Below, in pieces: positions 9,430 through 31,510 of a stretch of DNA of 33,757 nt. The stretch covers positions 1 to 33,757 of the IMG/VR virus record IMGVR_UViG_3300038825_000946; one strand, 5' to 3'. The stretch is from a virus. Position numbers and translations under genes: made by a program. Numbering within the stretch: position 1 is the stretch's first letter; each line of letters starts with the position of its first letter. A model generated the notes under the pieces. That model saw only the letters and a list, made by a program, of their open reading frames with translations. It was not told the DNA's origin and searched no databases.

Positions 9430-9565
9430 ATATTACTTTTGGCACAATCCTATCATGGATAAATTTGAGAGGTGGGCCAGTTCATTGAGTACTTGGTTTT
9501 GGCAGAAACGATGGGGTGATAGAGACCTTTATCGTTCTGTCCAAAAAAAAAGACCACCTGACTAA
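9398..9565 (+). CDS. Tryptophan-rich basic mini-protein at the end of the early operon
   Basis: This 55-residue ORF begins inside the previous gene, with AGGAAGGA (9381-9388) well placed. It is unusually rich in Trp, Phe, Tyr and Arg (FRYYFWHNPIMDKFERWASS, then TWFWQKRWGDRDLYR). It looks like a membrane-surface or nucleic-acid-binding peptide, although this is inference. The last codons (QKKRPPD) lie over the A-tract and hairpin that end the opposite-strand transcript, so one DNA stretch serves as coding end and as terminator. Confidence 0.6.
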   Translation: MTSSNLYKKFRYYFWHNPIMDKFERWASSLSTWFWQKRWGDRDLYRSVQKKRPPD

Positions 9566-9581
9566 AAAGTCAAGCGGTCTT
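9543..9581 (-). terminator. Rho-independent terminator of the late (minus) operon
   Basis: On the minus strand an imperfect hairpin, with outer stem AAGACC/GGTCTT (9550-9555 with 9576-9581) and inner stem TGACT/AGTCA, is followed by an unbroken run of T (A9543-9551 on the plus strand). This is a strong intrinsic terminator layout. It ends the leftward transcript just past the last late gene (stop at 9627). Confidence 0.85.
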
Positions 9582-9593
9582 CGTGTTGCCTGC

Positions 9594-9628
9594 AAGGGAA
9601 GTCTATTAATTTAGGCTTCCCTTTTTTT
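9594..9628 (+). terminator. Rho-independent terminator of the early (plus) operon
   Basis: AAGGGAAG (9594-9601) pairs with CTTCCCTT (9616-9623), and the 3' arm runs into seven T (9622-9628). It ends the rightward early transcript. The T-tract also contains the TAA stop of the converging late gene, read from the other strand (9627-9629). Confidence 0.85.
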
Positions 9629-12083
9629 ATGCAAAAAGTCTATTTGATTGCCCCTGTAATTTTGACATTTTCTTGGGCTTGCTTAATATTTCTTTTTGCA
9701 ATTCTTTTGGTAGAGGCATTTTATAAATAACTTCATTTCTTGCAGTGTCCTCTATCTCTTCATTAATTAATACAGCATCATAATCATTTATGTATTTAGA
9801 ACTTTCATTATCTACAACTACTCCTTTTAATGCTACATCTCTTAATCCTTCATCTGCAAATCCTTCTGCTCCTGATTTAGCGTAGTTAGATAATTTAACT
9901 TGTACAGCAGGTAAACCTAAATAAATTTCTTTACTACTACCAATTGTCCAAACTAAATATTCTGATTCAGGACCGTAAGATCCAACTTTTTTTTCTACAG
10001 AATCTCTAAGTAATTCTTGAGTTTCTGACATTGGCTGGGGATCTTCATAACTTTTCATTATATTAACTTGGTTTTGTAAATATTCTATTATACTTCTTTG
10101 TTTTATTATTTCAGGTCTTAATACTTTTGGATCATTGTATTTAGGAACACCTAAAAATATATTAAAGTAGTCTGGAAGTTCCCTTTGTGCAGGACCAGTT
10201 CTTAATTTAGCTAATAACTCTTTAGCACTTAGTTTTGTTAATACAGCATTTGCATTAGTTTCTGCATATTGATATTGTTTATTTAATTCTTGAAACTGTG
10301 TGCTCTTTAAATTTATTTCTTCTATTTCTACACCATATTTTTTTGCAAGTTTATCAAATTTTTTTCTAACAATATTATCATAAAAATATTTCATGCCTTC
10401 CATTTCTTCTGAACCCATTCCTTGATATCTATTAGTTTGGATATTACCATTTGTAAATGCAATACTATCAGCACCCTCGTCTATAGCTTTTTTAATTGCA
10501 GTATCAATACTAAGATCAACCCATTTTTCTGTTTTAACTATAGGTAAATTTGGTACAGGTTTATAAACATTTTTTATATATTGTTTAGTTCTTTCTTCTA
10601 CACTTTGTTTTGTTGAAAAATCTCTTGTTCTTTTACCTCTAATAAGTACGCTTTGATTTCCATATAATTTTAAATCAAGACTACCACCTCTTGAATTATG
10701 ATAAGGATTATTATAATTTTGTTTAGCAACACTATGTAAATAGTTACCTTTAAAAAATATATGGGAATATTCAGGACCTATAGGCATTTCTCTATCTATA
10801 GTAACTCCTTCTCCTTTAGGTGCTGGTTTAACTACATCACTCTCATCTAACCTTACATACATATTGTCTTGTTTAAAACGTGCTACTTTTGTTCCACGAT
10901 TTTCTTCTATGGTATAATCAATGTTTTTATTTGCTAAAAAATTTATAACTTCGTTATCACCAGTTAAGATTTCATAATCACTTACAAAACCTTTTTCTCT
11001 CTGATCTTGTAGATAATCAGATTGTATCTCATCTATTATAAAAGTATTATTTAACTTTATTATTGCTTCTTGTTCTTCTTTTGAAAATGATGTGTCCTTA
11101 ACTGATAGGGACAACCTTTTTAGCATCTCAGGATCTGCATACCCCTTTTGACCTCTAACGTGTGCTATTGTATCAGCACTAATCACTGGATTAAAGTGAG
11201 TGCCTGGTGGAAAATATTTCTCTTCACCAGGTGGTCTGTCAAATTTTATTAATAAAATACTTCTATTTTCTAAAGCCCCAGGCAAACTAAAACTTTCAAA
11301 AGTTTCATAATGACTTGGGCCACCTTTGTCTCCTCTTAAACTTAAACCTTGAGGTATCTCCTCAGCTCTTATAGTAGATGATATATCTCTTTTAGCTAAT
11401 GCTTTTTTAAATTTTGTTATATCAACTTTATCACCTTTATAACTATCTATTAAATTATCAACACCAAGATAAATAGTTTCAGCTTCTGTTGCTTTTAAAT
11501 TTTTTATATAATTTTTTAGTTGTTCTTTACTGGCTATGGGTTGTTTAAAATCATCCATACCTTTTATTACTTTAGAGTAGTACTCAGGTTGTTCTCCCTT
11601 TAAAGATTTTGCAGTTTGTACTTCTACATCTGTTAGAGAACCTGTTTCAGCTTTATCTTTTGTAAGAATAAAATCTTCTTTCTTAGGTGTATCAGCAACT
11701 GGCGTAGTTAAAGTTGTATCTATTTTTTTTGGTTCAGGTGTAATTAAAGTTGTATCTTGTTTTTCGCCAATAGGTGTTTCTAATTTTGTATCTATTTTTT
11801 CAGCCTCAGGTGTAATTAATGGTGGCGGTGGGGGTAATGTTTCTTTTGGCTCACCACCTATAACTAAACCTTCAGGTGATTCTGCAACACTTTGTGTTAT
11901 AGATGGATCTATATTATCATCCATAACTCTATTAAGAACCACACCACCTGTTACAGCAGTTAATGCTTCTTTGCCATGATCTTTTATAAATTTTTTAGTT
12001 CCTTGTTTTACAAGTTCTCTTTGTAAATAAGGTAATGCAAATCGACCAGCTGTTGTTAATATAGGTATTACTGGTAAAGGCAT
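9627..12083 (-). CDS. Large polyvalent-like protein, putative ejected or internal virion protein
   Basis: This 818-residue protein starts with a hydrophobic and basic N-terminus, followed by a proline run (PPPPP near 84) and four 12-residue repeats (89-136). The centre carries motifs I know from phage and plasmid polyvalent proteins: an E-I-Q-S-D motif (DEIQSDYLQDQREKG, about 351-365), then AIDEGADSIAFTNGNIQ and RYQGM (about 525-550), then GMKYFYDNIVRKKFDKLAKK. In such proteins these resemble the 'EIQSD', 'WTTGEQQ..RY' and 'G..FYD..LP..L.K' blocks. These domains are thought to be delivered with phage DNA. It is the last gene of the late operon, next to a glucosaminidase. The enzymatic activity, if any, is unknown. 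Confidence 0.6.
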   Translation of the reverse strand: MPLPVIPILTTAGRFALPYLQRELVKQGTKKFIKDHGKEALTAVTGGVVLNRVMDDNIDPSITQSVAESPEGLVIGGEPKETLPPPPPLITPEAEKIDTKLETPIGEKQDTTLITPEPKKIDTTLTTPVADTPKKEDFILTKDKAETGSLTDVEVQTAKSLKGEQPEYYSKVIKGMDDFKQPIASKEQLKNYIKNLKATEAETIYLGVDNLIDSYKGDKVDITKFKKALAKRDISSTIRAEEIPQGLSLRGDKGGPSHYETFESFSLPGALENRSILLIKFDRPPGEEKYFPPGTHFNPVISADTIAHVRGQKGYADPEMLKRLSLSVKDTSFSKEEQEAIIKLNNTFIIDEIQSDYLQDQREKGFVSDYEILTGDNEVINFLANKNIDYTIEENRGTKVARFKQDNMYVRLDESDVVKPAPKGEGVTIDREMPIGPEYSHIFFKGNYLHSVAKQNYNNPYHNSRGGSLDLKLYGNQSVLIRGKRTRDFSTKQSVEERTKQYIKNVYKPVPNLPIVKTEKWVDLSIDTAIKKAIDEGADSIAFTNGNIQTNRYQGMGSEEMEGMKYFYDNIVRKKFDKLAKKYGVEIEEINLKSTQFQELNKQYQYAETNANAVLTKLSAKELLAKLRTGPAQRELPDYFNIFLGVPKYNDPKVLRPEIIKQRSIIEYLQNQVNIMKSYEDPQPMSETQELLRDSVEKKVGSYGPESEYLVWTIGSSKEIYLGLPAVQVKLSNYAKSGAEGFADEGLRDVALKGVVVDNESSKYINDYDAVLINEEIEDTARNEVIYKMPLPKELQKEILSKPKKMSKLQGQSNRLFA
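11676..11819 (-). repeat. Four 12-residue coding repeats in the polyvalent-like protein
   Basis: Residues 89-136 form four consecutive units of 12 residues with the pattern L-x-T-P-x-x-x-K-x-D-T-T: LITPEAEKIDTK, LETPIGEKQDTT, LITPEPKKIDTT and a more diverged LTTPVADTPKKE. This proline/threonine linker probably separates the N-terminal segment from the globular part. The number of units may vary between related phages. Confidence 0.8.
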
Positions 12084-12084
12084 A

Positions 12085-12609
12085 TTACATTACAGGTATT
12101 TTTAATTTTTTCATTTGATCTCCTAAACTTTCTTCACCTCTAAACATTTTATTAGTTTGCTCCACAGGTGATATTCTTTTTTGATAAGAGTTGTATAGTA
12201 AATCATAATAATTTTCATTAGTTGAGTAATTATTTAATGCTTTAAACTGGTCTTCTATCGGTAGATCTTTTTCAATAGCCATTCTAAAATCTTTATAGTA
12301 ACTTCCAGACTTCATTAAATTTAAAAAATCTCTAACATTATCTTCTATGCTTTCATATTTTTTTAGTTTAACACCACTAGGTGTAGCAACAAATGGTTCA
12401 TTACCTATTGCATGTCTACCCATATAATTATTAGCAGATTTTGCAGTAGGTGCATTTGGAAAATCTCCGTAGCCACTTTCAATAGAAGCTACAGTTGTTA
12501 TAAGTGCAGGATTTACTTTTCTCTCAAAAGAATTTTCATCATACTCCTGTTGTACTTTGACAACAGTGTCATAAAATGTTTTTGGAAATGTTTCTGCTGC
12601 TTGTGCCAT
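12085..12609 (-). CDS. Bax-like glucosaminidase (peptidoglycan hydrolase)
   Basis: This protein would cut peptidoglycan, either for lysis or for local wall opening during DNA entry. The motif ALITTVASIESGYGDFPN, then ANNYMGR, matches the glucosaminidase/Bax family, with the catalytic-type glutamate in IESGYG. A following DNVRDFLNLMKSGSYY segment is typical of the family's C-terminal half. I chose the ATG at 12609 (174 residues) because AGGAA lies seven bases upstream. An alternative ATG at 12678 adds 23 residues that look like a signal peptide ending in AQA-A, but it overlaps the upstream gene by 50 bases and lacks a ribosome site. Confidence 0.75.
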   Translation of the reverse strand: MAQAAETFPKTFYDTVVKVQQEYDENSFERKVNPALITTVASIESGYGDFPNAPTAKSANNYMGRHAIGNEPFVATPSGVKLKKYESIEDNVRDFLNLMKSGSYYKDFRMAIEKDLPIEDQFKALNNYSTNENYYDLLYNSYQKRISPVEQTNKMFRGEESLGDQMKKLKIPVM

Positions 12610-12628
12610 TATGTTTCCTAATAATAAA

Positions 12629-12880
12629 CTAACAATTCCAAGCACGAAGTGCTTTATTAATTCTTGAATTTGGATCATTAGCTGTTTTTTTTGAAGTGAG
12701 CTTTTTTTTCATTCCCTTCATACGGGCACAGAAACTAGCTCTTCTTTTATTTCCTACTTTTTTACTAGGTGCTTTTAAATTACCTCCAGTAGCTTTGTTA
12801 TAACTAGCTCTACCTTTAGCATTTAATCCACCTGAGGGGTTTTTTCCTTCTTTACGTTGCCATGCAGGTGTCTTAGCCAT
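12629..12880 (-). CDS. Lysine-rich small protein, DUF6321-like
   Basis: This 83-residue, very basic protein contains the conserved blocks TPAWQRKEGKNPSGGLNAKG, NLKAPSKK and RASFCARMKGMKKKL, ending in SRINKALRAWNC. From memory this is the DUF6321 family, common in marine and other phages. Its function is unknown; the charge suggests DNA or RNA binding. It is the last of six consecutive tiny basic genes, linked to the previous one by TAATG. Confidence 0.75.
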   Translation of the reverse strand: MAKTPAWQRKEGKNPSGGLNAKGRASYNKATGGNLKAPSKKVGNKRRASFCARMKGMKKKLTSKKTANDPNSRINKALRAWNC

Positions 12881-13023
12881 TACTTCTTCTTACCTTTTTT
12901 CATTCTTAACATAGCAAAGTCTTTCTTAGTTAATTTACCATCTTTGTCCATGTCTAGTTTTTTTCTTTTACCTACAACTTTTTTACCTTTCATAGGTTTC
13001 TTTTTCATTTTACCGTACATCAT
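12880..13023 (-). CDS. EF-hand mini-protein, lysine-rich
   Basis: This 47-residue ORF is linked by TAATG at both ends. Residues 24-35 form a textbook EF-hand loop, DMDKDGKLTKKD. Acidic ligands are at loop positions 1, 3 and 5, Gly is at 6, Leu at 8 and Asp at 12; FAML follows as the start of the exit helix. The rest is almost all Lys, Met and Gly. It would bind calcium, directly usable in sea water, and may be a virion or DNA-associated factor. A single loop normally pairs with another, so a dimer is likely; this is inference. Confidence 0.7.
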   Translation of the reverse strand: MMYGKMKKKPMKGKKVVGKRKKLDMDKDGKLTKKDFAMLRMKKGKKK

Positions 13024-13271
13024 TAGCTATACCTCCTGTATTTCGCTGTTTTTTTTGCAATATTTTTCGGTTGCTTCACAAACTGTTTTCCCTTCTTTGT
13101 TCCTTTTCGTTTTGCTCTTGTCGTTGCCGCATACTCCGCAGACGACATTGCTTTGATAGCTTTCTCGGGCAAGTATCTTTCCCCAGTCTCCGAAGACTTC
13201 TTGCCAGATTTGGTTCTCCATTTCTGTTTTCCCCATGCTTTTAAACTCCTTTGACTCTTTGTTAGTGCCAT
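13023..13271 (-). CDS. Lysine-rich small phage protein, DUF5872-like
   Basis: This 82-residue basic protein contains SLKAWGKQKWRTKSGKKSS, GERYLPEKAIKAMSSAEYAA and GKQFVKQPKNIAKKT. I associate it with the DUF5872 family of small phage proteins, from memory and not certain. The function is unknown. Its codons (TCG, GCG, CCC, ACG, GGC) are clearly more GC-rich than those of neighbouring genes, suggesting later acquisition or strong constraint. A second frame within it is discussed among the findings. Coupled by TAATG at both ends. Confidence 0.75.
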   Translation of the reverse strand: MALTKSQRSLKAWGKQKWRTKSGKKSSETGERYLPEKAIKAMSSAEYAATTRAKRKGTKKGKQFVKQPKNIAKKTAKYRRYS

Positions 13272-13558
13272 TATTTTTTTCTCCCTTTTCTTATCGCTTC
13301 TTTACCTTTCTTAAATATGCCTGCCACCTTTGTCTTACCCATAACTTTGGCTCTTTGCTCGCCAACTGTAAGAATTTGGATTTTTCTTGCGAAGGGTTTG
13401 TTGATTCGTTTAACTTTTGCCACAGTATTACGGGCATCCGTAGGAGTTGAAAACTTAATACCGACAGTATCTTTAGGATTCTCATCTGTATACAACCTCC
13501 TACCTGAACCTTTTGGCTTTTTACCAGTTCCTACTTTAGGATCTCTTTTTTTTGCCAT
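13271..13558 (-). CDS. Lysine-rich small phage protein
   Basis: This 95-residue protein is basic at both ends (AKKRDPKVGTGKKPKGSGRR and KKGKEAIRKGRKK). The central block, KDTVGIKFSTPTDARNTV then INKPFARKIQILTVGEQRA, looks like a small folded beta-alpha domain. I have the impression of close homologues in many ocean phages, without known function. A histone-like or packaging-related role would fit the charge. The codon use is again more GC-rich than surrounding genes. Confidence 0.7.
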   Translation of the reverse strand: MAKKRDPKVGTGKKPKGSGRRLYTDENPKDTVGIKFSTPTDARNTVAKVKRINKPFARKIQILTVGEQRAKVMGKTKVAGIFKKGKEAIRKGRKK

Positions 13559-13664
13559 AAGATTTCATTTCTTTAATATGTTTTTTAATAATATTAGATT
13601 GTTTTTTATGTAGCTTAGATGCTTTACCTAAAGCCTTAGCTACTTTATTTAATTTTTTAACCAT
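13536..13664 (-). CDS. Lysine-rich mini-protein (42 residues)
   Basis: This ORF starts in a TAATG overlap with the preceding gene and overlaps the next gene start by 23 bases. The product is a single likely amphipathic helix, KLNKVAKALGKASKLHKKQ, followed by IIKKHIKEMK. It resembles a nucleic-acid-binding or membrane-active cationic helix. No family is recognised. It belongs to the run of tiny basic genes at 12629-13846. Confidence 0.55.
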   Translation of the reverse strand: MVKKLNKVAKALGKASKLHKKQSNIIKKHIKEMKSYGKKKRS

Positions 13665-13846
13665 TACTTATAACCTCCACCAGCTTTCTTATAAGCCTTT
13701 GCTAACGCTTGGGCTTTTCTTGCTGACCATTTACCAGCAGCTGTCCCATGAGATGCCTGTGCTTTAATCCTATTAAAGATTGTTTTTCTCATGCCTGGCT
13801 TAGTATAGTTACCTGCTTTATTTACTGTTGACTTCTTCTTTGCCAT
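13664..13846 (-). CDS. Small basic conserved phage protein
   Basis: This 60-residue protein contains NKAGNYTKPGMRKTIFNRIK, WSARKAQALAKAYKKAGGGY and a short linker. I recall this pattern ('NYTKP.MR..LF..IK', 'WSARKAQ.LAK.YK..GGGY') as widespread in marine phages, without a known function. It is strongly basic and predicted helical, and probably binds DNA or packs in the virion. It overlaps the preceding gene by 29 bases. Confidence 0.7.
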   Translation of the reverse strand: MAKKKSTVNKAGNYTKPGMRKTIFNRIKAQASHGTAAGKWSARKAQALAKAYKKAGGGYK

Positions 13847-14486
13847 CTTTTATCTCCTTGTATTCGTAATCATAACTTCCTTCTTGATTCTCATCAGTAA
13901 TCCATTTTGAAGTATCTTCAACTGACCATATTCTAGTATTAACTAATCTATGTATCAAGGGTTTAGTTGGATCTGCTGCCATAGATGGATCAAAGATTCT
14001 TAATCTATTGTTGGGTTGTATTGCATAATTACCATCATCTAATTCTATTACGTGTCCACATTTATGTTGATCAGGTTTTTCTGCATAACCAAAATCTAAT
14101 TCATTATAATCACCTGCACACCAATCAATTGTAAATAAGTATTTACCTTCTCTTTGTTTCTTTCTTCTAGATGTATATATCATTTTACATCCATCCATTT
14201 GATAAAATTTAGTTACACTTACATTATAACTAAAAGAATCCCATAACATTAATTCATTTAAAGGTAACTCTTTTACACCTGGTTTTTTACAAAATGCAGA
14301 TACAGGTGCTCTCCACCATATACCACCATCTGTCATCATATAATGAAACAAAGGTACTTGTTTTGGTATTGATGTAAAACCAAATACCACACATTCAAAG
14401 TATTTATCATGAGAATCTTTTTGATCTCTCAGATAATTACCTCTTACATAACATTCTATTGGGGGTATGTTTGCGTTTAAATACAT
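13818..14486 (-). CDS. Conserved hypothetical virion-region protein
   Basis: This 222-residue soluble protein is rich in Trp, Tyr and Cys. Notable segments are PPIECYVRGNYLRDQKDSHD, MMTDGGIWWRAPVSAFC, LFTIDWCAGDYNELDFGY and HVIELDDGNYAIQPNNRL. The density of aromatic residues suggests a compact enzyme or binding domain, but no catalytic motif is recognisable. It ends with an acidic and lysine-rich tail. I have the impression that it is well conserved among ocean phages. The role is unknown. Confidence 0.7.
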   Translation of the reverse strand: MYLNANIPPIECYVRGNYLRDQKDSHDKYFECVVFGFTSIPKQVPLFHYMMTDGGIWWRAPVSAFCKKPGVKELPLNELMLWDSFSYNVSVTKFYQMDGCKMIYTSRRKKQREGKYLFTIDWCAGDYNELDFGYAEKPDQHKCGHVIELDDGNYAIQPNNRLRIFDPSMAADPTKPLIHRLVNTRIWSVEDTSKWITDENQEGSYDYEYKEIKDGKEEVNSK

Positions 14487-14970: not shown

Positions 14971-15227
14971 TAGTTTGCTAGTGGGTTTTTGTTACTTGCT
15001 TTTAATTCTTGTATTTCTAATTCTAATACTTCAATACTTTTTTTTAATACTGCAATATCTTTTTGATTAGTACCCATTACTTGCATAATTGGGTCTGGAT
15101 TAAAAGGTTCTGCAATATTATTTACTTTTTCTTGTATCTCACCATATTTAACAAAACCTGCACCGATAGCACCTAGTACACCTATAAGTGCTGCAATACC
15201 TGCTAGCTGTTCTTTTATTTTACCCAT
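14970..15227 (-). CDS. TM plus coiled-coil protein, possible inner-membrane spanin or holin partner
   Basis: This 85-residue protein has an N-terminal membrane segment (about 8-26, LAGIAALIGVLGAIGAGFV), a proline-containing linker and a coiled coil (KDIAVLKKSIEVLELEIQE). One TM followed by a periplasmic coiled coil is the layout of i-spanins, which fuse membranes at lysis. No matching o-spanin lipoprotein is seen directly beside it. It overlaps the preceding exported-protein gene by eight bases. Confidence 0.5.
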   Translation of the reverse strand: MGKIKEQLAGIAALIGVLGAIGAGFVKYGEIQEKVNNIAEPFNPDPIMQVMGTNQKDIAVLKKSIEVLELEIQELKASNKNPLAN

Positions 15228-16569
15228 TGTTTAATACCTCTATTTCTCTTAGTAGTTTTTCTTTTTTAGTTTTGATATCATTAATGATATTTTGTTGGAT
15301 AAATATTGGATCGCTTTGTTGATATTCACCCAAAGTCTTAGTATATAATAATCTATCATCAAATATATTTAGTTGTTCTTCGTAAATTTTTTTATCTTTA
15401 TAGAATGGTATATTATAATTTAATAATATAGAGTTATCTACCATTGCATTTATTTTTACAAAATTTTTAGCTTGTAAATTTTTGTCTATATCTTTAATAT
15501 TCTCATCAATTTTATCTAAAGTTTTAACAAGAGCTGAATGGACTTTAGCCTGTCGTATTTCTTTTTCTTGTTTGGTATCACCTGTTGTTTCAGATTCTGC
15601 AGTTTGTGTAGGCTCTTCGCTACTGGATTCTTCTTTAAGTTCTTCTGGTCCTTCTTCTTGTTTTTCATCTTCTACAACTTCTATTGATTCTTCTACTACA
15701 GGTTTTTCTTCTTTCTCCTCTACCATTTCCATTGGCATATCCTCAATAAATTCTTCCATCATTGGATCATCTGCAAATTCTTCCATTGTAGGCTCATCTT
15801 TAAATTCTTCCATTTTAGGCTCATCAAATGTTTGAAAAGATTCTAATTTAGGTTCTTCCATTTTAGGCTCATCAAATGTTTCAAACATAGGTTCGTCAAA
15901 AGTAAAATTATCTTCAAACTTTATTTCATCTTCAAATTTTAAATCTTCAAACTTTAGATCTTCAGTGATGTCATCAAAGGTAGAATTTAAAAATGCAGTT
16001 GTTGTATTATCTAAAACAATTGGATCAGATTCATATGTTACAGTGAGGGAGGGATTTCGTAAGTCGACCCCATAGTGAGAAGTTGTAGAAAAGCTAGTAT
16101 CTGTGAAGTCATACCGAACTGAAACATCATAATCGGTTTGTAAATTTGATTGTACCACCACACTGTCAGACCCAGGGCTATAAGACCCACAATTAAGAGA
16201 GCCACAAGAAGTGCTATTATAAGTTCTAATTTGTGTGATTGTTTCACCATCTGCTCCTATTATCGTTTGTGTTGACTGTACAGTGGATTCATAAGTATTC
16301 CAATGCCAATACTCAAAACTGTGATTTGTTGTAAAACCGTATTGAATTTGTTCTTCAGTTAAAGACGCATCAGTTCTAAGACTAATAGAACTAGACTCGA
16401 TATAAACATCATGCTCAGCAGCGATAACGCTACTACCATGCCTACCATCGGCAGTTCCCGACCAACCTCCGTTATCAAAGTTCGTATCCAGGAGATTTTG
16501 AGTAGTCGTTTCAGCACTATTTAGTGTTGTCGATAACAGGATCAATAATGATACTATTAGCTTTTTCAT
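15220..16569 (-). CDS. Exported protein with acidic repeats and C-terminal coiled coil
   Basis: This 449-residue protein starts with a Sec signal peptide (KKLIVSLLILLSTTLNSA, cleavage near 19). A beta-rich domain follows (about 25-185, with NFDNGGWSGTADGRHGSS and paired cysteines Cys122/Cys127). Then comes an extremely acidic repeat region (198-335) and a helical C-terminus. GAGGAGG stands before the ATG, so expression is probably strong. A signal peptide on a phage late protein implies transport into the periplasm of the infected cell. It may modify the envelope, bind divalent cations or act in adsorption exclusion; that is inference. It overlaps the next exported protein by 53 bases. Confidence 0.7.
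   Translation of the reverse strand: MKKLIVSLLILLSTTLNSAETTTQNLLDTNFDNGGWSGTADGRHGSSVIAAEHDVYIESSSISLRTDASLTEEQIQYGFTTNHSFEYWHWNTYESTVQSTQTIIGADGETITQIRTYNSTSCGSLNCGSYSPGSDSVVVQSNLQTDYDVSVRYDFTDTSFSTTSHYGVDLRNPSLTVTYESDPIVLDNTTTAFLNSTFDDITEDLKFEDLKFEDEIKFEDNFTFDEPMFETFDEPKMEEPKLESFQTFDEPKMEEFKDEPTMEEFADDPMMEEFIEDMPMEMVEEKEEKPVVEESIEVVEDEKQEEGPEELKEESSSEEPTQTAESETTGDTKQEKEIRQAKVHSALVKTLDKIDENIKDIDKNLQAKNFVKINAMVDNSILLNYNIPFYKDKKIYEEQLNIFDDRLLYTKTLGEYQQSDPIFIQQNIINDIKTKKEKLLREIEVLNNG
15565..15978 (-). repeat. Acidic Phe-Asp-Glu-Pro coding repeat
   Basis: Residues 198-335 of the exported protein consist of degenerate short units such as KFEDLKFED, then TFDEPKMEEPK and TFDEPKMEEFK, then DEPTMEEF and DDPMMEEF, shading into an almost pure Glu/Lys/Ser tract. 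TFDEPKMEE occurs twice exactly. The region should be disordered and strongly negative, able to bind Ca or Mg. Confidence 0.85.
16038..16250 (-). CDS. Possible nested membrane protein, alternative frame inside the exported-protein gene
   Basis: Inside the 449-residue gene, a shifted frame encodes 70 residues with a classic membrane helix (LELIIALLVALLIVGLIALG followed by LTVWWY) after a short charged start (MVKQSHK). AGGAG lies three bases upstream of the ATG, rather close. The outer gene in this stretch uses unusually GC-rich codons. Nested lysis genes such as Rz1 are known in phages, but coincidence cannot be excluded. Confidence 0.3.
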   Translation of the reverse strand: MVKQSHKLELIIALLVALLIVGLIALGLTVWWYNQIYKPIMMFQFGMTSQILAFLQLLTMGSTYEIPPSL

Positions 16570-18418: not shown

Positions 18419-21400
18419 TTAATTTTCAAACCCATATGTTCCAGTATACTTATCAAATATTAATTTATCAAGTAAATTTTTCATAACATCTGTTTTTTGT
18501 AAACTTTTATCTCTCTTAGTAACTCTGTTTAAAAAACTAGAGTTCATAAGTTCAGCTCTATTAGCTATTTTAGTTTCAATAGATTCCATGCCTAATCCTA
18601 ATTTTCTTAGTTCACTGTATATGTATAATGGTACAAATCCATCTTTCATTAAATGTCTAGCACCAGCTGTTATAATTGTATCTTGAGTTGCTTTTAATTC
18701 ACGTTTAAATTTAGTAGTTGCATAAATTAAATTTAATACTTCTCTTTCTTTTAATGAGTATGCTGCTAAGTTTCTAGCTCTCCAATCTTGAAGTGTTCTA
18801 GTTATTTGCCCTCTACCTTTTTTAAATACATTTTGTACTGGACCATATGCCTGATACTTAAATATATTCTCATCTTCTTTTTCAAGACTCCAGTCTTTCC
18901 AATATGAAGATACAGGTCCAGGTATACCCATGTAATATCTTTCAACTGCACCATGTAGTGATGTAGGTACAGAATCACGTAAAAATTGCATCCATGCTTC
19001 TCTTCTTTCTTCAGAACTTTGACTTACTAATGTTGTAGTAATTGCACTTATAGAAGTTGGTATTATGCCTCTACCTTTTTGTATTTGACTTGGAGTTAAT
19101 CCAAAGTAATTTAATGATGGTACACTTACTAAATCTTGTACAGCTAATCCTGGTGCTGCAAGAGTTGATGTTAAATCAATTCCTAATGTGCTTGATGGTA
19201 ATCCATATTTTATAAAATCAGGATAATCACCTGTTAATATAGCAGTTTTTAAAGATGGCGTTGGTTTACCTGTTATTCTAGATATAATTGGTGACAGTTT
19301 ATCTAATATAGCTTCTGCTGTATTTATGCCTATAACTCCAAATAATCCTGCAGTTAAAACCATAGAAGTTAAAAATGCAACAGCACCTTCATTTCCTCTA
19401 CCCTGCTTACCCTTAACTAAATAATCTGCTAGCTGTGCTAAATAGTTATGTTGAAATGTTTTAAATAATCCAAATGGTCTACCTAAAGTTCCTAATCCTT
19501 TTGCACCATAAATACCTGGTTGCTCCATATAAGTATATTCAACCATATATTTATCTGCATTATAGGCAGCATGTTTTTTTGCTTTATCTTTAGGCATGCC
19601 AGACTGTCTATATAAATTATAAAATTGAGTAGCTGCATTTAATCTACTTACTTGTTCAACTCTTGAACTTATGTTCTGCATTGTTAAACCTTTTACTAAC
19701 CAATCTGTATTTAATGCTTTTCTTCCTCTATATTGTAAACTTCCAGGCAATTCAATTACAGGTGCTAATGAATCAATTCTAGCCATCGCTTCATTTAAAA
19801 ATTTAGGTTCAACTACACCAACTTTTTTAAAATAAGCCTGTGCTTCTGCAACTTCTTTACTAGGTAATACTAAATCTTTTGTTGATTGTAAAACTGTTTG
19901 TGCAATACTAGATTTATCATGTCCACTATATTTTAAATCTATTAACTTTGGCAATATCATATGATAAGGCTGAAGTGCCTGTGATATTAAGAATCTTGCT
20001 TGACCAAATAATAATTTTGCAGCAAGAGTAAATCTATTCATACCGCCCAGTGCTTTACCTAAACCTGATTCACCAAACCATTTGCTTCCAATTTTATCAG
20101 CTACTTCTTCAAACTTTCTTCTTGGTAATTCGCCATAGACTAATTGTTTCTGTGCTTCTAATGCTTTTGCAGAATTAGGAAACTCAGCTTGTAATGTAGT
20201 TGTTCTAAAACCACCATTAGGTAATGGCACTACAAATTTTTTATTTAAAAGATTATTTAAATTATAATTTGTTTTCCATCTTGATGAAGCTGTTACAGCA
20301 CCTTTAGTGTATAAAGATACAGCAGTTTCAAAATCAGATGCCATTTTGGCATTTATATTTCTGTCTATTTTTGTACCAAGTTTTTCTGATAAAAAATAAT
20401 TTTTTGCAGCCAATTCACTTCCAAGGTAACCATCTACTTGCTGTCTTGGTAATGCAAATTTTTTAAATCCTGTTTTAGTTCTTGCTTCTGACATAAGTGT
20501 ATCTAAATCTCGATACAACTCTGGCATTTGTTTTTTTAAATTATCGTTTCTATATAATTCCATAAGTGCATCTAATTCAACTGCACCTTCTCTTGTTTTA
20601 TCTTTTGTAACTATATTAAATTTATATTCAGATACTTGTTTACCATCTTTAGTAGTTACTGTTTTACCACCATAATCTTTTTGTAATTTACGTAAAATAG
20701 AATCAGCAGCAAATTTATTACCCGCACCAATAGCAATAGAATCTTCAGCTGTATATTTATTTTTTTCTTTATTAAATTTAACAGCCCATACTCTAAAGTC
20801 ACCACTAAATACTCTAGGAAAATGATTAGGCCTTAAATTAAATACAACACCATTACTTTGTTCAGGATATTTTAATGCAGCTCCATTTACCTCATGTAAA
20901 TTAGAATCACTTAAATCTCTTAGTTTAGAGTACACCCTAACTTGTTGATCTATTAAAGCAGAATCATTTGAATATTTTTTAAATTCATTTTTAATTTCTT
21001 CTACTGTAGCTTCATATTTATGTTTGTTATCAACTTTAGATTTTTGTATTTCTAAAGTTTTAAAGTATAAAAAATCATTGTAATTACCTTTTCTACCATC
21101 AGGAAAATATCTTTCACCTGTTGCAGAATCTACTGGTAATTTACCAAAATCAACATCTCTATAAACTTTTTCAGTTTTTATTCTAGTATCATATGATTCT
21201 TTGTTTGCTTTAGCCTGTGTTGATTTTGCAATATCAAGTGCTGCGTTAACTCTAATAATATCAGCAGCAGCTTTAGGATTTTTTTCTTTTAATATTTGAA
21301 ATTCTGTTAAACCAGCATCTTTACTTTTTGCAGCTGTAAATCCAAAAATTTTAATAAAGTCACCTCTACCTTCAAGTCTTAATTGATAGTCTGCAAATGA

Positions 21401-22813
21401 CTCACCTGGTTTTCTATCAGGCATATATTTTTTATCAGTTACAACTTTAGGATCAAATAACTTTTGATTTACTTTTATATCATCAATTCTTTTTTCTGCA
21501 GCAATACTATCTCTGCCGTATTTAAATAATGGATCTAAATTAAATGATGGTGGAATAGCTAAGTTAATAATTTTTTGTAATGTAGTATCAGGCATATCTT
21601 TAAATTTAGGTGTGCCATCTCTATTAAATTGATCAACTTTAAATTGTTCTATATTTCTTTCACCAAAAATACCATCTTGAAAATCTTTCATCACTTCATT
21701 ATATCTTTCACCTGTAAATATAACTTTACCTTGTGCATCAAGATGAGCTTCTAACTCATTTACTTTATTTCTTAATTTATCTAAAGCCTCAATAGTAGGT
21801 ACTTCACCTTGTATTTTTACTGTGGGTTTTTTACCTTCTGCTAACTCTTTTTCAATTTGTTTAGATGTTTCTAAATTTTTTTCAAACTCTTTTAATCTTG
21901 CTCTATTTAATAAATATGAATCTGATATTTTAATATATTCTTCTGCAGCTCTACCTCTAGTTTCACTAATAGTAGTTTTAGATTCTCTACCTATTAAACT
22001 TTTATAATCTAAAGCTGATTGTGATTCTACCCTAATAGGCTTACCTTCTGCTTTTGGTGATAAATATCCTGCTGCACCCCATACAGTTGCAGCAGCAGCT
22101 CTATCTTCTAAATTTGCATTATGCCCTGCTGTTAAAAAACCAAAACCACCAAGTGCACCCATTCTAGGCCCTACACTTAAATTATTTGCCCATCCAATAA
22201 ATTTACCAGTTCCATAGCCATATGCAGCAGCTTTTGCAATATCAACTGCATTACCATCATCTATTTCTCTAGTAACATCTGTAAGTGCAATACCTTTAGC
22301 TAAACTACCTGATGCTTTTACAAATGGTATATATTGAGCAATTGTCACAGGTAATCCCGCAAAACCTGCCGCTGTTTTATTTATATAACCTTCTGGTGGC
22401 TCATAACCATATGCTTCTGGTGATACACCTCTTGCTAAAGATTTAAAATAATCTTCTGCATAAGTATATATGTTTTCTTCATCAGGTTCAAATCCTAATG
22501 TAGTTCTACCCCAGTTATAAAATCTATCTATACCACCAGGTATACTTCCTAATAATTCATAAGCAGAACTTACACTAGTATTAAAACCATAACCTAATGC
22601 ATTACTAAATTTTTTACTTTGTATTTCTCTTCTTTTTAATATCTCGGGATCAACTTCTTCAGGAACTTGATTAAATAAATCAAATTTATAGAAGTTACCT
22701 CCATCTAAAATATTAGATGTGTTTGGATTTAAATCATAGCCACCCTCATATAATTGTCTTACAGAAGGATGTTGCTGTGTTAAATCTTTTGTATCAAAAG
22801 AAAAATCAGCCAT
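18419..22813 (-). CDS. Giant internal virion or ejection protein (1464 residues)
   Basis: The largest gene in the window. The N-terminal third has a Gly/Ala-rich, mildly hydrophobic region (about 155-260), then a charged helical part. The middle is mixed alpha/beta. The last third contains hydrophobic stretches (near 1140-1160, TSMVLTAGLFGVIGINTAE) and a basic helical end. Size, position after the tail-related genes and composition agree with podovirus internal core proteins (compare T7 gp16) that are ejected with DNA. I see no clear transglycosylase catalytic motif. The C-terminal layout recalls domains of large polyvalent proteins, but I cannot assign one securely. Confidence 0.6.
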   Translation of the reverse strand: MADFSFDTKDLTQQHPSVRQLYEGGYDLNPNTSNILDGGNFYKFDLFNQVPEEVDPEILKRREIQSKKFSNALGYGFNTSVSSAYELLGSIPGGIDRFYNWGRTTLGFEPDEENIYTYAEDYFKSLARGVSPEAYGYEPPEGYINKTAAGFAGLPVTIAQYIPFVKASGSLAKGIALTDVTREIDDGNAVDIAKAAAYGYGTGKFIGWANNLSVGPRMGALGGFGFLTAGHNANLEDRAAAATVWGAAGYLSPKAEGKPIRVESQSALDYKSLIGRESKTTISETRGRAAEEYIKISDSYLLNRARLKEFEKNLETSKQIEKELAEGKKPTVKIQGEVPTIEALDKLRNKVNELEAHLDAQGKVIFTGERYNEVMKDFQDGIFGERNIEQFKVDQFNRDGTPKFKDMPDTTLQKIINLAIPPSFNLDPLFKYGRDSIAAEKRIDDIKVNQKLFDPKVVTDKKYMPDRKPGESFADYQLRLEGRGDFIKIFGFTAAKSKDAGLTEFQILKEKNPKAAADIIRVNAALDIAKSTQAKANKESYDTRIKTEKVYRDVDFGKLPVDSATGERYFPDGRKGNYNDFLYFKTLEIQKSKVDNKHKYEATVEEIKNEFKKYSNDSALIDQQVRVYSKLRDLSDSNLHEVNGAALKYPEQSNGVVFNLRPNHFPRVFSGDFRVWAVKFNKEKNKYTAEDSIAIGAGNKFAADSILRKLQKDYGGKTVTTKDGKQVSEYKFNIVTKDKTREGAVELDALMELYRNDNLKKQMPELYRDLDTLMSEARTKTGFKKFALPRQQVDGYLGSELAAKNYFLSEKLGTKIDRNINAKMASDFETAVSLYTKGAVTASSRWKTNYNLNNLLNKKFVVPLPNGGFRTTTLQAEFPNSAKALEAQKQLVYGELPRRKFEEVADKIGSKWFGESGLGKALGGMNRFTLAAKLLFGQARFLISQALQPYHMILPKLIDLKYSGHDKSSIAQTVLQSTKDLVLPSKEVAEAQAYFKKVGVVEPKFLNEAMARIDSLAPVIELPGSLQYRGRKALNTDWLVKGLTMQNISSRVEQVSRLNAATQFYNLYRQSGMPKDKAKKHAAYNADKYMVEYTYMEQPGIYGAKGLGTLGRPFGLFKTFQHNYLAQLADYLVKGKQGRGNEGAVAFLTSMVLTAGLFGVIGINTAEAILDKLSPIISRITGKPTPSLKTAILTGDYPDFIKYGLPSSTLGIDLTSTLAAPGLAVQDLVSVPSLNYFGLTPSQIQKGRGIIPTSISAITTTLVSQSSEERREAWMQFLRDSVPTSLHGAVERYYMGIPGPVSSYWKDWSLEKEDENIFKYQAYGPVQNVFKKGRGQITRTLQDWRARNLAAYSLKEREVLNLIYATTKFKRELKATQDTIITAGARHLMKDGFVPLYIYSELRKLGLGMESIETKIANRAELMNSSFLNRVTKRDKSLQKTDVMKNLLDKLIFDKYTGTYGFEN

Positions 22814-26764: not shown

Positions 26765-27370
26765 TTAATTTACTCCGTACAAATCTATTGTACCTGAATC
26801 TATGTTGCCTGAATGCATTTTAAAGTCTACAGCATTTATTGCTGATGTTGTATTTCCATATCCAGCAACATAGGTTGGTCTAGCCGTATCACCTGAAGCA
26901 TCTGTCATTCCTGTAAAAATAAAATGTTTTACAAATGTTGTAGAACTAGGATCAAAAAGATGTAAAATACCAACACTATTAGCATCATTATCATTGCCGC
27001 CTTCAAGCACTAAAGTTTGATAACCTGTACCTTGTGCTAGATCATCACCTGTTCTATATCCTAATCCTGTAGATGATCCACTTTCTGTATGAAATGCTCT
27101 AAAATGTGTAGATGTTTTTGTTACGTTATAATTACTACCACCATCAATAGACATATTAAACTGTAAGTTTGCGTTATCAGTAGCTGGGTGAATATTATTA
27201 AAAACAAATATATATTCTTTATAAGTGCTATTTATTCCTGATGTAATACTTACACTTGATGATGAACTAGCTGTTGATCTCGATATAAAAACTAAATCAC
27301 CAAGTCCTGTTATGGTTCCAACTGCTGTTGCATCTTTTAATGCTCTATTATTTAAAGTTACTATACTCAT
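26765..27370 (-). CDS. Fibre-array paralog 8 (201 residues)
   Basis: One of eight related genes and the last in transcription order. Shared signature: STYKEYIFVFNNIHPATD, DGGSNYNVTKT, LFDPSSTTFVKHF, GYGNTTSAINAVDFK and SGNIDSGTIDLYGV at the C-terminus. The first 40 residues are different from the other short members. The domain is probably a beta sandwich at the tip of a fibre, a candidate for receptor binding. It is joined to paralog 7 by TAATG. Assignment rests on position and on the paralogs that carry a fibre N-terminus. Confidence 0.65.
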   Translation of the reverse strand: MSIVTLNNRALKDATAVGTITGLGDLVFISRSTASSSSSVSITSGINSTYKEYIFVFNNIHPATDNANLQFNMSIDGGSNYNVTKTSTHFRAFHTESGSSTGLGYRTGDDLAQGTGYQTLVLEGGNDNDANSVGILHLFDPSSTTFVKHFIFTGMTDASGDTARPTYVAGYGNTTSAINAVDFKMHSGNIDSGTIDLYGVN

Positions 27371-27990
27371 TATGATTTACTCAATCCATACATTTTAATC
27401 ACACCACTATCTATGTTTCCACTAGAAAATTTAAAATCAATAGCATTAATAGCTGAAGTAGTATTCATATAACCAGCATTATAATTATTAGATGTTTGAG
27501 AGGAAGCACCAGCAACCATACCATTAGTTACTGAAATATAATGCTTAACAAAAGTTGTGTTTGATGGTGAGAATAAAAATAAATCACCACAAAAACCTGA
27601 GTCACTATGATTACTAACTGTTCCGTCTGCATCTAAAATATCGTAAGCTGTACTTTGTGCAAGATCAGCACCTGTTCTATAACTTAATCCTGTACCACTA
27701 TCACTTTCTGCATGATATGCTCTAAAATTTGTACTTGTTTTGGTTACGTTATAGTTAGAACCACCATCAGTAGAACCATTAAATGTGAAATTTGCATCTG
27801 ATGCTGGGTGACAATTTATAATTTTAAATAAATAAGTATCATAAGTGCTATTAATATTAGAAGTAAAAGAAGATGACGATACTCCTGATGTAATAGTGTT
27901 TGTGGCAAGTAAAACTAATGAACCACTTGGTATGCTATCTAAAGCAGTAACAGCAGATATAGAATTGTTATTGTATTTAACTAACGCCAT
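27370..27990 (-). CDS. Fibre-array paralog 7 (206 residues)
   Basis: Starts with MALVKYNNNSISAVTALD, close to paralog 6. The conserved blocks are STYDTYLFKIINCHPASD, DGGSNYNVTKT, LFSPSNTTFVKHY, GYMNTTSAINAIDF and SGNIDSGVIKMYGL. The middle part differs most, as expected for a binding surface. Overlaps the end of paralog 6 by 14 bases; all other array joints share one base or have short gaps. Confidence 0.65.
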   Translation of the reverse strand: MALVKYNNNSISAVTALDSIPSGSLVLLATNTITSGVSSSSFTSNINSTYDTYLFKIINCHPASDANFTFNGSTDGGSNYNVTKTSTNFRAYHAESDSGTGLSYRTGADLAQSTAYDILDADGTVSNHSDSGFCGDLFLFSPSNTTFVKHYISVTNGMVAGASSQTSNNYNAGYMNTTSAINAIDFKFSSGNIDSGVIKMYGLSKS

Positions 27991-28585
27991 ATAATTTTAT
28001 AACTCCACTATCTATATTGCCACCTGTCATTTTGAATTGTACTGCATTAACTGCACTTGTTGTATTTACATATCCAGCTTGATAACCATCTAAAGAGAAA
28101 TCACCACCTGAATAACTTTGACTTCTGTTTATCCAATGTTTAACAAATGTTGTATTGCTTGGGTCGAAAAGATGTAAAATACCTGACATACTTTCATCAT
28201 TAGCATTTCCCACATTATTACAAAGATTTTGGAAAGATGTAGATTGTGCTAAATCATCTGCTGTATAGTAAGCTACACCTGAACTAGATCCATCAACTTC
28301 ATAATGATATGCTTGAAAAGCTGAACTTGTTATAGTTACACCATATGAACTTCCACCATTTGTACTTACTTGAAATTGTAACTCAGTATTGTCGGTTGCT
28401 GGGTGCATATCATAATATCTAAAAATATATTCTTTATACGTACTGTCTATTCCACTTGTAAAAGATAATGAGGAACTACTACTAGCTGTCTGTGTAGATA
28501 TTAAATTTAAAGCACCACCACTAATAGCTGCAGGTATCGAAGTTATAGCTGATAAAGAATTATTGTTACAAAAATTTAAAGCCAT
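27977..28585 (-). CDS. Fibre-array paralog 6 (202 residues)
   Basis: Starts with MALNFCNNNSLSAITSIP. Conserved blocks: SGIDSTYKEYIFRYYDMHPA, NGGSSYGVTIT, LFDPSNTTFVKHW, GYVNTTSAVNAVQFK and GGNIDSGVIKLYGVS. Together with paralogs 7 and 8 it forms a subgroup with a short 'NNNS' start and no fibre attachment part visible. It may attach to a longer fibre or assemble as a separate tip protein. Confidence 0.65.
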   Translation of the reverse strand: MALNFCNNNSLSAITSIPAAISGGALNLISTQTASSSSSLSFTSGIDSTYKEYIFRYYDMHPATDNTELQFQVSTNGGSSYGVTITSSAFQAYHYEVDGSSSGVAYYTADDLAQSTSFQNLCNNVGNANDESMSGILHLFDPSNTTFVKHWINRSQSYSGGDFSLDGYQAGYVNTTSAVNAVQFKMTGGNIDSGVIKLYGVS

Positions 28586-29220
28586 TATCTAACTCCATAC
28601 ATCGTTATGGTTCCGCTATCAATATTGCCTGATGACATTTTAAATTGAATTCCTGTAATAGCAGACGTTGTATTAAAAAAACCAGCACCAAATACATCTG
28701 TTGCTCTGTCAAATATTGTCATAGTTCTTGAAATATAATGCTTAACAAATGTTGTAGATGATGGTTCAAATAAGTGCATATGTCCTGAAATACTTTGATC
28801 GTTATCTGAACCTGTGCTTTCATTTAATCTTTGAAAAGCAGTTCCTTGTGCTTGGTCGTCATCAGCACTATAACCTAATGCTCTAGAACTATTATCTTCT
28901 TGATTTCTAGCAACAAAATAAGTGTTTGTAAGTGTAGTATTAAAATTACTTCCATCAGTTGTTGTTTGAAAAACTAATTTAGTATCATCTGTTTGTGGAT
29001 GAAGATTATTGAAAAAAAACATATACTCTTTATAAGTGCTATCAATACCTGATGTAAACGATAATGATGCACTTGAGCTTGCAGTTGTAGTAGCTATCTT
29101 AACTAAATTACCTCCAGCATCTGCTGTCTCTAAACCATTAGCACTTGAATTAAATCTTATGGCTTTACTAGCGGCTGGTGTAACATTTATACTATTAAAT
29201 TTTAATTTATTAAGAGCCAT
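28585..29220 (-). CDS. Fibre-array paralog 5 (211 residues)
   Basis: Starts with MALNKLKFNSINVTPAASKA, part of a second N-terminal subgroup (also paralogs 3 and 4). Conserved blocks: STYKEYMFFFNNLHPQTD, LFEPSSTTFVKHY, GFFNTTSAITGIQFK and SGNIDSGTITMYGV. The intermediate surface residues differ from all others. Joined by TAATG on both sides. Confidence 0.65.
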   Translation of the reverse strand: MALNKLKFNSINVTPAASKAIRFNSSANGLETADAGGNLVKIATTTASSSASLSFTSGIDSTYKEYMFFFNNLHPQTDDTKLVFQTTTDGSNFNTTLTNTYFVARNQEDNSSRALGYSADDDQAQGTAFQRLNESTGSDNDQSISGHMHLFEPSSTTFVKHYISRTMTIFDRATDVFGAGFFNTTSAITGIQFKMSSGNIDSGTITMYGVR

Positions 29221-29861
29221 TATTTTGTAACTCCATACATTTTAATTGTGCCTGCATCTATTGTGCCTGCAGAAAAAGTAAATCTTATACCATCGATGGC
29301 AGCCGTAACATTTGCATATCCAGCATTAAAGTGATTCATTGCATAATCATAACCATCTGTGGTATTTATATGAGCTAAAAAATGTTTTACAAATGTTGTT
29401 GAACTAGGACTAAATAAATACATTGTGCAACAAAGAGATTCATCATTAGCATTACCTGTATCACCTAAACGTTTTTGACTTGTGCTTTGTTCTAAATCTT
29501 GTCCAGAATTATAAGTTAAACCTGAAGCATTACCAGCTTCATTTGAACCACCGTACCACGATGTACTTGTTATTGTTGCATCAAAGTTACTACCACCATC
29601 TCTAAGATTAAAACCAAAAATAGCGTGATCATTAGATGGATGAATATCAAAACACTTAAATACATAAGTATCATAGGTGCTATCTATACCTGATGTAATA
29701 TCAACTTGACTTACAGATGATGAAACAGTGCTAGTTGAAATTAATGTTAAAGCACCTGGTGCTGCTGTGTCAAACCCATTAGCACTTGCATTGAAAGCTA
29801 AACCTGTGCTTGCAACAGTTGTTAAATCAAAACTATTAAAATTAAATTTAGTAAGTGCCAT
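29220..29861 (-). CDS. Fibre-array paralog 4 (213 residues)
   Basis: Starts with MALTKFNFNSFDLTTVASTG. Conserved blocks: STYDTYVFKCFDIHPSND, DGGSNFDATIT, LFSPSSTTFVKHF, GYANVTAAIDGIRF and AGTIDAGTIKMYGV. It is the most diverged of the short members at the C-terminal block (Thr and Ala replace otherwise shared residues). Probably the same fold with another specificity. Confidence 0.65.
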   Translation of the reverse strand: MALTKFNFNSFDLTTVASTGLAFNASANGFDTAAPGALTLISTSTVSSSVSQVDITSGIDSTYDTYVFKCFDIHPSNDHAIFGFNLRDGGSNFDATITSTSWYGGSNEAGNASGLTYNSGQDLEQSTSQKRLGDTGNANDESLCCTMYLFSPSSTTFVKHFLAHINTTDGYDYAMNHFNAGYANVTAAIDGIRFTFSAGTIDAGTIKMYGVTK

Positions 29862-30511
29862 TATAAAATCCCATATAATTTAAATGTTCCAGACTGTATA
29901 TTACCAGATGACATTGTAAATTGAATAGCATTTATAGCAGATGTTGTGTTACCATACCCACCAACAAAACATTGTGTTGAAGCATCACCGTTAGCTGAAT
30001 ATGTTTGTGTAATTACATTATAATGTTTAATAAAAGTTGTGCCTGATGGATTGAATAAACGAACTTCTCCTGAACAACTTTGATCATTATCACCACCAAT
30101 TGTTAATCCAGAAATAGCTTGAACACCTGTACTTTGTGCTAAATCAGGACTTGAGGCATTATCTAAACTTGCTGAACCACCTCCTTCTTCGTGCGATGCT
30201 CTAAAAAAATGACTTGTTTTTGTAACATTATAATTACTTCCGCCATCAGCTGATAAATTCATTCTAAAGTCAACGTTATCAGTGCCTGGATGAATGTTAA
30301 TCATTTTAATTACATACTCTTTATAAGTAGTATCTATTCCACTAGTTATTGAAATTGCTGAATCATCACTTGCTGTGGTTGTAGATATGAGTTGTAAATT
30401 ACCCCCAACATCATCCGCAGCTAACCCATTGTTACTAGAGTTAAATGTTATAAACTTACTCGCTGTTGGAGTAACGTTGAAGCTATTAAAGTTTGCTTTA
30501 GATATTGCCAC
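29861..30511 (-). CDS. Fibre-array paralog 3 (216 residues), GTG start
   Basis: Starts at a GTG (30511) with AGGAG six bases upstream. The overlapping ATG at 30513 is out of frame and gives only a short ORF. The N-terminus is MAISKANFNSFNVTPTASKF. Conserved blocks: TTYKEYVIKMINIHPGTD, DGGSNYNVTKT, LFNPSGTTFIKHY, GYGNTTSAINAIQF and SGNIQSGTFKLYGI. It separates the six short paralogs from the two long ones by a nine-base gap. Confidence 0.65.
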   Translation of the reverse strand: MAISKANFNSFNVTPTASKFITFNSSNNGLAADDVGGNLQLISTTTASDDSAISITSGIDTTYKEYVIKMINIHPGTDNVDFRMNLSADGGSNYNVTKTSHFFRASHEEGGGSASLDNASSPDLAQSTGVQAISGLTIGGDNDQSCSGEVRLFNPSGTTFIKHYNVITQTYSANGDASTQCFVGGYGNTTSAINAIQFTMSSGNIQSGTFKLYGIL

Positions 30512-30520
30512 ATTTTACTC

Positions 30521-31510
30521 CTATGAAATTCCGTAAAACCTAATTACTCCACTATCAAAATTACCACTTTCAGGTGTAAATTTTATAGCATTAAAAGCAT
30601 TATCTGCATCTGCTGTATAAAATCCACCAGAAACAAAAGGCATAGCATCATCTTGTACATCATGAGAAATTCCTGATACAAAATAACTAAAAAAAGTTGA
30701 AGTGTTTAATGGATCATAAATAAACATTCTAAAATTGTTTGGTCTAGTTGTTGCACTTGTTGTATCTGCAAATAATTGAAATCCACCTGAAGCAGCACCA
30801 TCAGCTTGGTTTCTTGCGTTTCCAGCACTTTCTGTACTAAAAGCAGAATACCTATAATTAGAACCTGATTTATAATTTGAACCATTATCACTACTAATTT
30901 TCATATTTATTTTTCCTTGTGCATCAATAATAATAGAATCAAAATCAAGCATAAATCTTTTGTAAGATGAGGTTATAACACTACTATTAAAAACTATATT
31001 AGCTGTATCTGCAGATATTGTTGTGGTAGAAAGTAAAGTATGTGTTGAAGAACCTTTTATAAGTGAGTAATCAATTCTTTTTAATACACCAGCGTCACTA
31101 ACTAGAAACTCATCAGTATCTGCAGGTTCAGAAGCTAAAGCAGTTTGTCCCGAGATTACATCTGCATTAAATTTAGCAGCTGTTACTGAGTTTGCAACTA
31201 GTTTTGCAGTTGATATACTATTGTCTGAAGGTGTGCCTAGATCTAATACATCTCCTAAAATAATTACAAAGTCTATAACATCACCTGTCGCTAAGTTACT
31301 AGCAAAGGTAAGTGTAGACCCTGATACTGTAAAGGAATCACCTGGTGCTTGTAGTACACCATTAAGAGATACTAACATATGATTAGCATTCTCAGGGGAT
31401 ACCGCTGCACCACCAACGTTTAGTGTGTATGCTGCTTGTCCATTAACAACCGATATTGCATCACACTTTTGAAAGTTTCCTACTACTGGTTGTTTACCTA
31501 TATATGCCAT
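30521..31510 (-). CDS. Fibre-array paralog 2, long form with fibre N-terminus (329 residues)
   Basis: The N-terminal half (MAYIGKQPVVGNFQKCDAIS, then LVSLNGVLQAPGDSFTVSGS and GDVLDLGTPSDN) is a domain I know from marine phage tail fibres. Residues about 105-150 (VTAAKFNADVISGQTALASE, LVSDAGVLKRIDYSLIK) form a fibre linker. The C-terminal domain is a diverged copy of the array domain (IYDPLNTSTFF, SGNFDSGVIRFYGI). This links the array to fibres. Coupled by TAATG to paralog 1. Confidence 0.75.
   Translation of the reverse strand: MAYIGKQPVVGNFQKCDAISVVNGQAAYTLNVGGAAVSPENANHMLVSLNGVLQAPGDSFTVSGSTLTFASNLATGDVIDFVIILGDVLDLGTPSDNSISTAKLVANSVTAAKFNADVISGQTALASEPADTDEFLVSDAGVLKRIDYSLIKGSSTHTLLSTTTISADTANIVFNSSVITSSYKRFMLDFDSIIIDAQGKINMKISSDNGSNYKSGSNYRYSAFSTESAGNARNQADGAASGGFQLFADTTSATTRPNNFRMFIYDPLNTSTFFSYFVSGISHDVQDDAMPFVSGGFYTADADNAFNAIKFTPESGNFDSGVIRFYGIS

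Follow-up and report, generated by a model that had tools for sequence, protein, structure and literature searches.

The last late gene of a 33.8-kb virus record encodes an 818-residue protein, P0001, that is by profile similarity a member of a protein family defined here, the EIQSDWHQ module family, and whose core is predicted to fold like GNAT acyltransferases. Nucleotide comparisons with close relatives identify residues ~373–505, within this core, as a folded, fast-evolving cassette that recombination exchanges between pelagiphage genes that are nearly identical elsewhere; such recombinational cassette exchange within the fold of an EIQSDWHQ-module protein is new here. The best explanation we can offer, and one to which we give an even chance, is that P0001 is a late virion-associated protein, probably ejected, with a divergent GNAT-fold core that modifies a host target.

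The window (the whole stretch of DNA analyzed, 33,757 nucleotides) encodes a DNA polymerase that shares 86% identity with the Pelagibacter phage HTVC033P enzyme and 41% with the HMO-2011 enzyme, and judged by its HMO-2011-type replication genes the phage belongs to the HMO-2011-type pelagiphages. Its kinship with HTVC033P and HMO-2011 suggests that its probable hosts are SAR11, an abundant group of marine bacteria. The 818-residue ORF has eight close relatives in IMG/VR (65–88% identity) and two more at 42%, and in the relative checked for synteny (L006) the amidase gene, the ferredoxin-like gene, the genes for small basic proteins, the glucosaminidase gene and the 818-residue-type gene are all retained. 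The late operon of HTVC033P ends with its amidase gene, and the 818-residue-type gene is absent from that end.

Several other genes of the window deserve mention. A minus-strand array at 26765–32472 comprises about six tandem paralogues of 201–216 residues and two proteins of ~325 residues, with the C-terminal half in common (TSxIxSTYKEYxF...HP.TDN). Its products match phrog_14820 and tail fibre families, HMO-2011 has a comparable run of small tail-fibre genes, and the array is possibly a receptor-binding diversity array. A 1464-residue late protein (18419–22813, minus strand) occupies the position expected of an ejection protein; tblastn found no match to it among 50,697 phage records, despite the polymerase being 86% identical to that of HTVC033P. 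A secreted-looking 449-residue protein (15220–16569, minus strand) has an acidic, repetitive EDLKFEDEIKFEDNF / FDEPKMEEPK stretch. The 222-residue late-operon protein encoded at 13818–14486 (minus strand) matches phrog_3704, labelled 'ferredoxin' (E=2e-56), a label that looks doubtful because the sole Pfam hit (COX7B) falls under its cut-off.

A preliminary description of this DNA had reported the 818-residue ORF at 9627–12083 together with its motifs, and both are borne out by our ORF check of the window, which also supplies the strand that it had left unspecified (minus). The EIQSD motif lies at residues 352–356 (11016–11030), AIDEGADSIAFTNG at 533–546, RYQGM at 552–556 and GMKYFYD at 563–569. 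Its placement of the gene at the end of the late operon, beside a wall hydrolase, was also correct: the start codon follows by 1 base the stop codon of a glucosaminidase-family wall hydrolase gene (12085–12678, minus strand; PF01832, E=4e-9, above the cut-off), and two terminator-like hairpins, one per strand, lie at 9549–9623 between the late operon and the convergent early operon. Just upstream of the glucosaminidase gene are small ORFs very rich in Lys and Arg (60–95 residues; 12629–13846, minus strand), conserved in L006, which possibly encode packaged DNA-binding proteins.

Read from its N terminus along the minus strand, P0001 begins with a hydrophobic/amphipathic segment (residues 1–55, 11919–12083) that is strongly conserved in the clade alignment, followed by a Pro/Thr-rich linker (residues 56–165, 11589–11918) encoded in part by ~3.2 copies of an imperfect 36-nt repeat at 11704–11819 (LITPE..KIDTxLxTP). 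A helical subdomain (residues 166–235, 11379–11588), the counterpart of FYS..KGTG..GVK..E in the canonical module, precedes the first half of the predicted GNAT-like fold (residues 236–372, 10968–11378), which contains the strands SILLIKF, TIAHVRG (with R310) and TFIIDEIQ, with EIQSD where predicted strand beta4 ends. The variable cassette (residues 373–505, 10569–10967) is predicted to be beta-rich and is inserted between beta4 and alpha3. The second half of the fold (residues 506–600, 10284–10568) comprises the VPNLP..W521 helix, the IAFTNG strand, RY at 552–553 and FYD with Y568. A second variable segment (residues 601–740, 9864–10283), in which model confidence is mostly low, leads to the C-terminal part (residues 741–818, 9630–9863), whose predicted last strand, VIYKMPL, and helix before the stop codon correspond to ITPEM..GQPLF of the canonical module.

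Scanning viruses with an EIQSDWHQ DNA pattern returned at least 120 viral stretches, and a canonical HMM was built from 100 viral EIQSDWHQ proteins with the window's own clade left out. This HMM matched P0001 with 75.6 bits (E=2.4e-22, Z=1000) and with 63 bits (E=1.5e-18) when residues 341–370 were masked, compared to a best score of 5.5 bits on ~400 shuffled or reversed controls. Aligning the canonical profile to the clade profile with hhalign gave a probability of 98.9% (E=3.4e-17) over residues 505–595, with EIQSD outside the aligned stretch. Since both the masked HMM and the hhalign match are independent of EIQSD, the relationship is real and not a matter of a single motif. The EIQSDWHQ proteins have an ordered set of motifs in common, and P0001 keeps the same order: the helical FYS/KGTG, LPG..LL, HF, AHxR, EIQSD, the P-P-W helix, IA-TxG, RY, GM-FYD and the ITPEM end. 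The window's clade differs in having DYLQ for DWHQ, a short spacing from RY to GM and the beta-rich cassette after EIQSD, and in carrying the module alone in an 818-residue protein with a Pro/Thr linker.

Existing annotation offers little on this family. Pfam, PHROG and NCBIfam models matched P0001 at chance level only (Imm33, arsC_related, PQLLE), tblastn of the protein in phage records found no match, and a literature search for EIQSD returned nothing relevant. In the proteins scanned, the EIQSDWHQ module lies outside every Pfam and NCBIfam model; the only profile to touch it is PHROG 7348 'endolysin', which is long and fused. We rejected the idea that the motifs represent a known LPD, as LPD models miss the module in every protein scanned. 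The 'endolysin' and 'lysin' labels of PHROG 7348 and of Nostoc and Microcystis phage genes we read as fusion artefacts, because no similarity to lysozymes was detectable in the module; large proteins that bear such labels via the EIQSDWHQ module (L134:3168–15206 and those in PHROG 7348) are probably misleadingly named.

The preliminary description had also likened P0001 to polyvalent proteins. This resemblance exists by relationship, in that ART-PolyVal, PBECR5, LPD22, LPD23, LPD39 and PLxRFG domains are found in proteins that carry the module, but P0001 itself has no catalogued polyvalent domain (LPD1-40, ART-PolyVal, PBECR etc.) in a Pfam scan. The profile search against polyvalent-protein domains that the description had proposed was thus negative, the reason being that the libraries searched hold no curated model of the EIQSDWHQ module. 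Because the Pfam scan was negative, we class P0001 as related to a polyvalent-protein module and not as a polyvalent protein. It has one recognizable enzyme-like fold and zero curated domains, whereas other carriers of the module are multi-domain proteins. Among 23 long module ORFs, four had fusions to ART-PolyVal and one each to PBECR5, LPD22, LPD39 and GGDEF; the module is also fused to a PLxRFG domain, and a 5000-residue protein of a P. aeruginosa plasmid joins it to LPD23. Structural searches of BFVD gave E-values down to 2e-23, with matches named LPD, ART-PolyVal and LT_GEWL/lytic transglycosylase.

The module is widespread beyond pelagiphages. A genome scan identified 65 loci in bacterial and archaeal assemblies (Proteobacteria, Campylobacterota, Acidobacteria, Firmicutes and others), which are presumably prophages or mobile elements, and a Cupriavidus plasmid encodes a 532-residue protein with a module whose core has almost no inserts (L204:2530–4125, WP_220631717.1). 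Carriers of the module also include the cultivable Pseudoalteromonas phage PH1. The nameable neighbors of 68 canonical viral loci are foremost terminase, portal, tail and head-tail adaptor families. In Pelagibacter phage HTVC028P, the module (with EMQSD) is found in the late gene product gp34 (QPZ53416.1), whose gene is flanked by genes annotated as encoding internal virion proteins and precedes the tail fibre gene; in T7-like phages, ejection proteins are encoded at this position. While both are pelagiphage late genes with the module, gp34 is a 954-residue protein encoded among internal virion genes, whereas the gene of P0001 stands apart at the 3' end of the late genes, ~6 kb downstream from those that likely encode ejection proteins. 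From the gene context of its relatives, ejection of P0001 is plausible.

The preliminary description had pointed to residues 240–600 as a place to look for an enzyme fold, and structure prediction indeed yields one that is GNAT-like. AlphaFold models were made of a compact canonical module (L061; pLDDT 87.6, pTM 0.78) and of window residues 160–818 (pLDDT 73.9, pTM 0.64, with the core blocks above 85). In VIA comparisons, nearly all of the best 50 rows for the canonical model were GNAT acyltransferases (best Z 9.9), and the first 41 rows for the window model were all from the GNAT superfamily (best Z 9.6), with unrelated rows appearing from Z ~5 down. Foldseek matches against the PDB were weak (best E 2e-3 for the canonical model and 3.5e-2 for the window model). 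The predicted models thus have the fold that defines the GNAT superfamily, and the EIQSDWHQ core, in the window residues ~236–600 plus the C-terminal strand, likely folds as GNAT-like. This predicted fold is the same as that of the M. tuberculosis ICL2 C-terminal domain, the KacT/AtaT/TacT toxins, GCN5, NAT9 and EsaI, and both P0001 and these proteins have a Glu on beta4 and a Tyr at alpha4. P0001 differs in its incomplete CoA loop, its large insert between beta4 and alpha3, and its sequence: in the libraries searched, neither the module nor P0001 matched GNAT families, the module profile found no relative among PDB sequences, and profile comparison with the annotated phage acetyltransferase HTVC028P gp37 detected no similarity. 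EF-hand-like matches over residues ~164–234 (Z about 4) were set aside. We also considered an ART fold, which the module may have even though the listed fold matches contained no ADP-ribosyltransferase.

Nine positions are invariant in 25 aligned members (H296, R310, E352, Q354, S355, D356, P514, W521 and A533), and Y568 is conserved in 96% of them. Conservation of EIQSD is partly a selection effect, and its invariance was not used as evidence where members had been picked by EIQSD. Conservation of H296, R310, W521 and Y568 is free of that effect: the first three persist in divergent proteins of HTVC028P, Cupriavidus and Caballeronia, whose discovery did not involve the EIQSDWHQ DNA pattern, as does Y568 with one exception. 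In GNATs the catalytic residues usually lie at the positions occupied here by E352, where beta4 ends, and by Y568, in the subsequent helix alpha4. The GNAT CoA loop, Q/R-x-x-G-x-G/A, is half present as R362-x-x-G365, each residue occurring in 80% of the 25 members, and the third G/A is missing. The cassette is inserted exactly where the CoA loop runs into alpha3.

This cassette exists as three types in the window's clade, and identity drops across it in some gene pairs. Comparing nucleotides of the flanks (residues 346–372 and 506–600) and the insert, L002 is 95–99% identical to the window in the flanks and 71% in the insert, while L006 is 98–99% identical to L004 in the flanks and 70% in the insert; in contrast, L004 and L002 are 87–90% identical in the flanks and 91% in the insert. 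A 3SEQ-like permutation test located exchanged segments at residues 371–467 (L002) and 374–523 (L006, with L005 as a parent, and L007); in three comparisons, which have a breakpoint near residues 371–374 in common, none of 5000 permutations was as extreme. The dN/dS of the insert was 0.59–1.21 compared to 0–0.56 for residues 506–600, these being pairwise values that recombination blurs. The insert site is also a family-wide hot spot of length variation, with 21–222 residues between EIQSD and P-x-A-P-F.

If P0001 is an ejected modifying enzyme, it would be synthesized late, packaged and then ejected with the phage DNA, and its GNAT-like core would, in the early phase of infection, modify a host molecule with the help of an acyl-CoA. 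Glu352 on beta4 and Tyr568 in alpha4 would be the candidate catalytic base and acid, and the exchangeable cassette (373–505) may set or shield target recognition. Of the family as a whole we say more tentatively, as a possibility that falls somewhat short of probable, that EIQSDWHQ modules may be uncatalogued, very widespread cryptic GNAT-fold acyltransferases serving as injected effectors of phages and plasmids, whose target specificity, in pelagiphages at least, is diversified by swapping a core-inserted cassette in the manner of interchangeable recognition domains.

The half-conserved CoA loop, with an insertion hot spot (21–222 residues) at that very loop, and invariant H, R and W residues that are not standard GNAT signatures could instead mean that the core is a GNAT-fold pseudoenzyme, binding another ligand or a protein or nucleic acid partner and serving as a platform with its specificity in the swappable cassette. 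We regard this as unlikely, given that an invariant Glu on beta4 and a Tyr at the alpha4 position occupy the usual GNAT catalytic sites, and that strict polar conservation of this kind is more typical of enzymes. The likeness to GNATs might itself be a generic alpha/beta coincidence, with the module having another fold or belonging to another enzyme class, since the best Z of 9–10 is modestly above the 7–8 typical of models without clear matches and the Foldseek E-values are weak. However, two models with different alignments and targets ~20% identical both retrieve GNATs almost exclusively, and a gap separates the GNAT rows from the unrelated ones in the VIA lists, which makes coincidence quite improbable. 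It also seems distinctly unlikely that P0001 is neither packaged nor ejected but remains in the producing cell, aiding lysis or assembly in connection with the glucosaminidase. Although its translational closeness to the glucosaminidase gene, its position downstream of the amidase and small lysis-type genes, and its absence from the end of the HTVC033P late operon, where the amidase is last, are consistent with such a role, relatives of the module are encoded within blocks of virion genes and form part of very large late proteins that also carry domains of injected effectors.

As an ejected modifying enzyme, P0001 would work like T4 Alt, an injected ADP-ribosyltransferase, or the polyvalent ART domains (PMC5512222), by the similar logic of a late-made, packaged and ejected protein-modifying enzyme, without being a member of either; their fold and chemistry differ, and packaging of P0001 is proposed. 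Iyer et al. (2017) described two RimI-like GNAT families in polyvalent proteins, one of them beside ART domains, and solo forms in Firmicutes and Actinobacteria (PMC5512222). These families and the EIQSDWHQ module have in common the GNAT fold (predicted in the module) and the class of protein, and one of the two families may be the module itself.

None of the libraries searched includes a model dedicated to the module, although it is present in at least 120 viral stretches and 65 bacterial and archaeal loci. Now that an enzyme fold is predicted and invariant residues are defined, these 'hypothetical' late genes become testable effector candidates, and cassette exchange would make what pelagiphages inject a directly testable question. 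That phages probably infecting SAR11 swap a subdomain within the core suggests that a specific host target is the object of an arms race.
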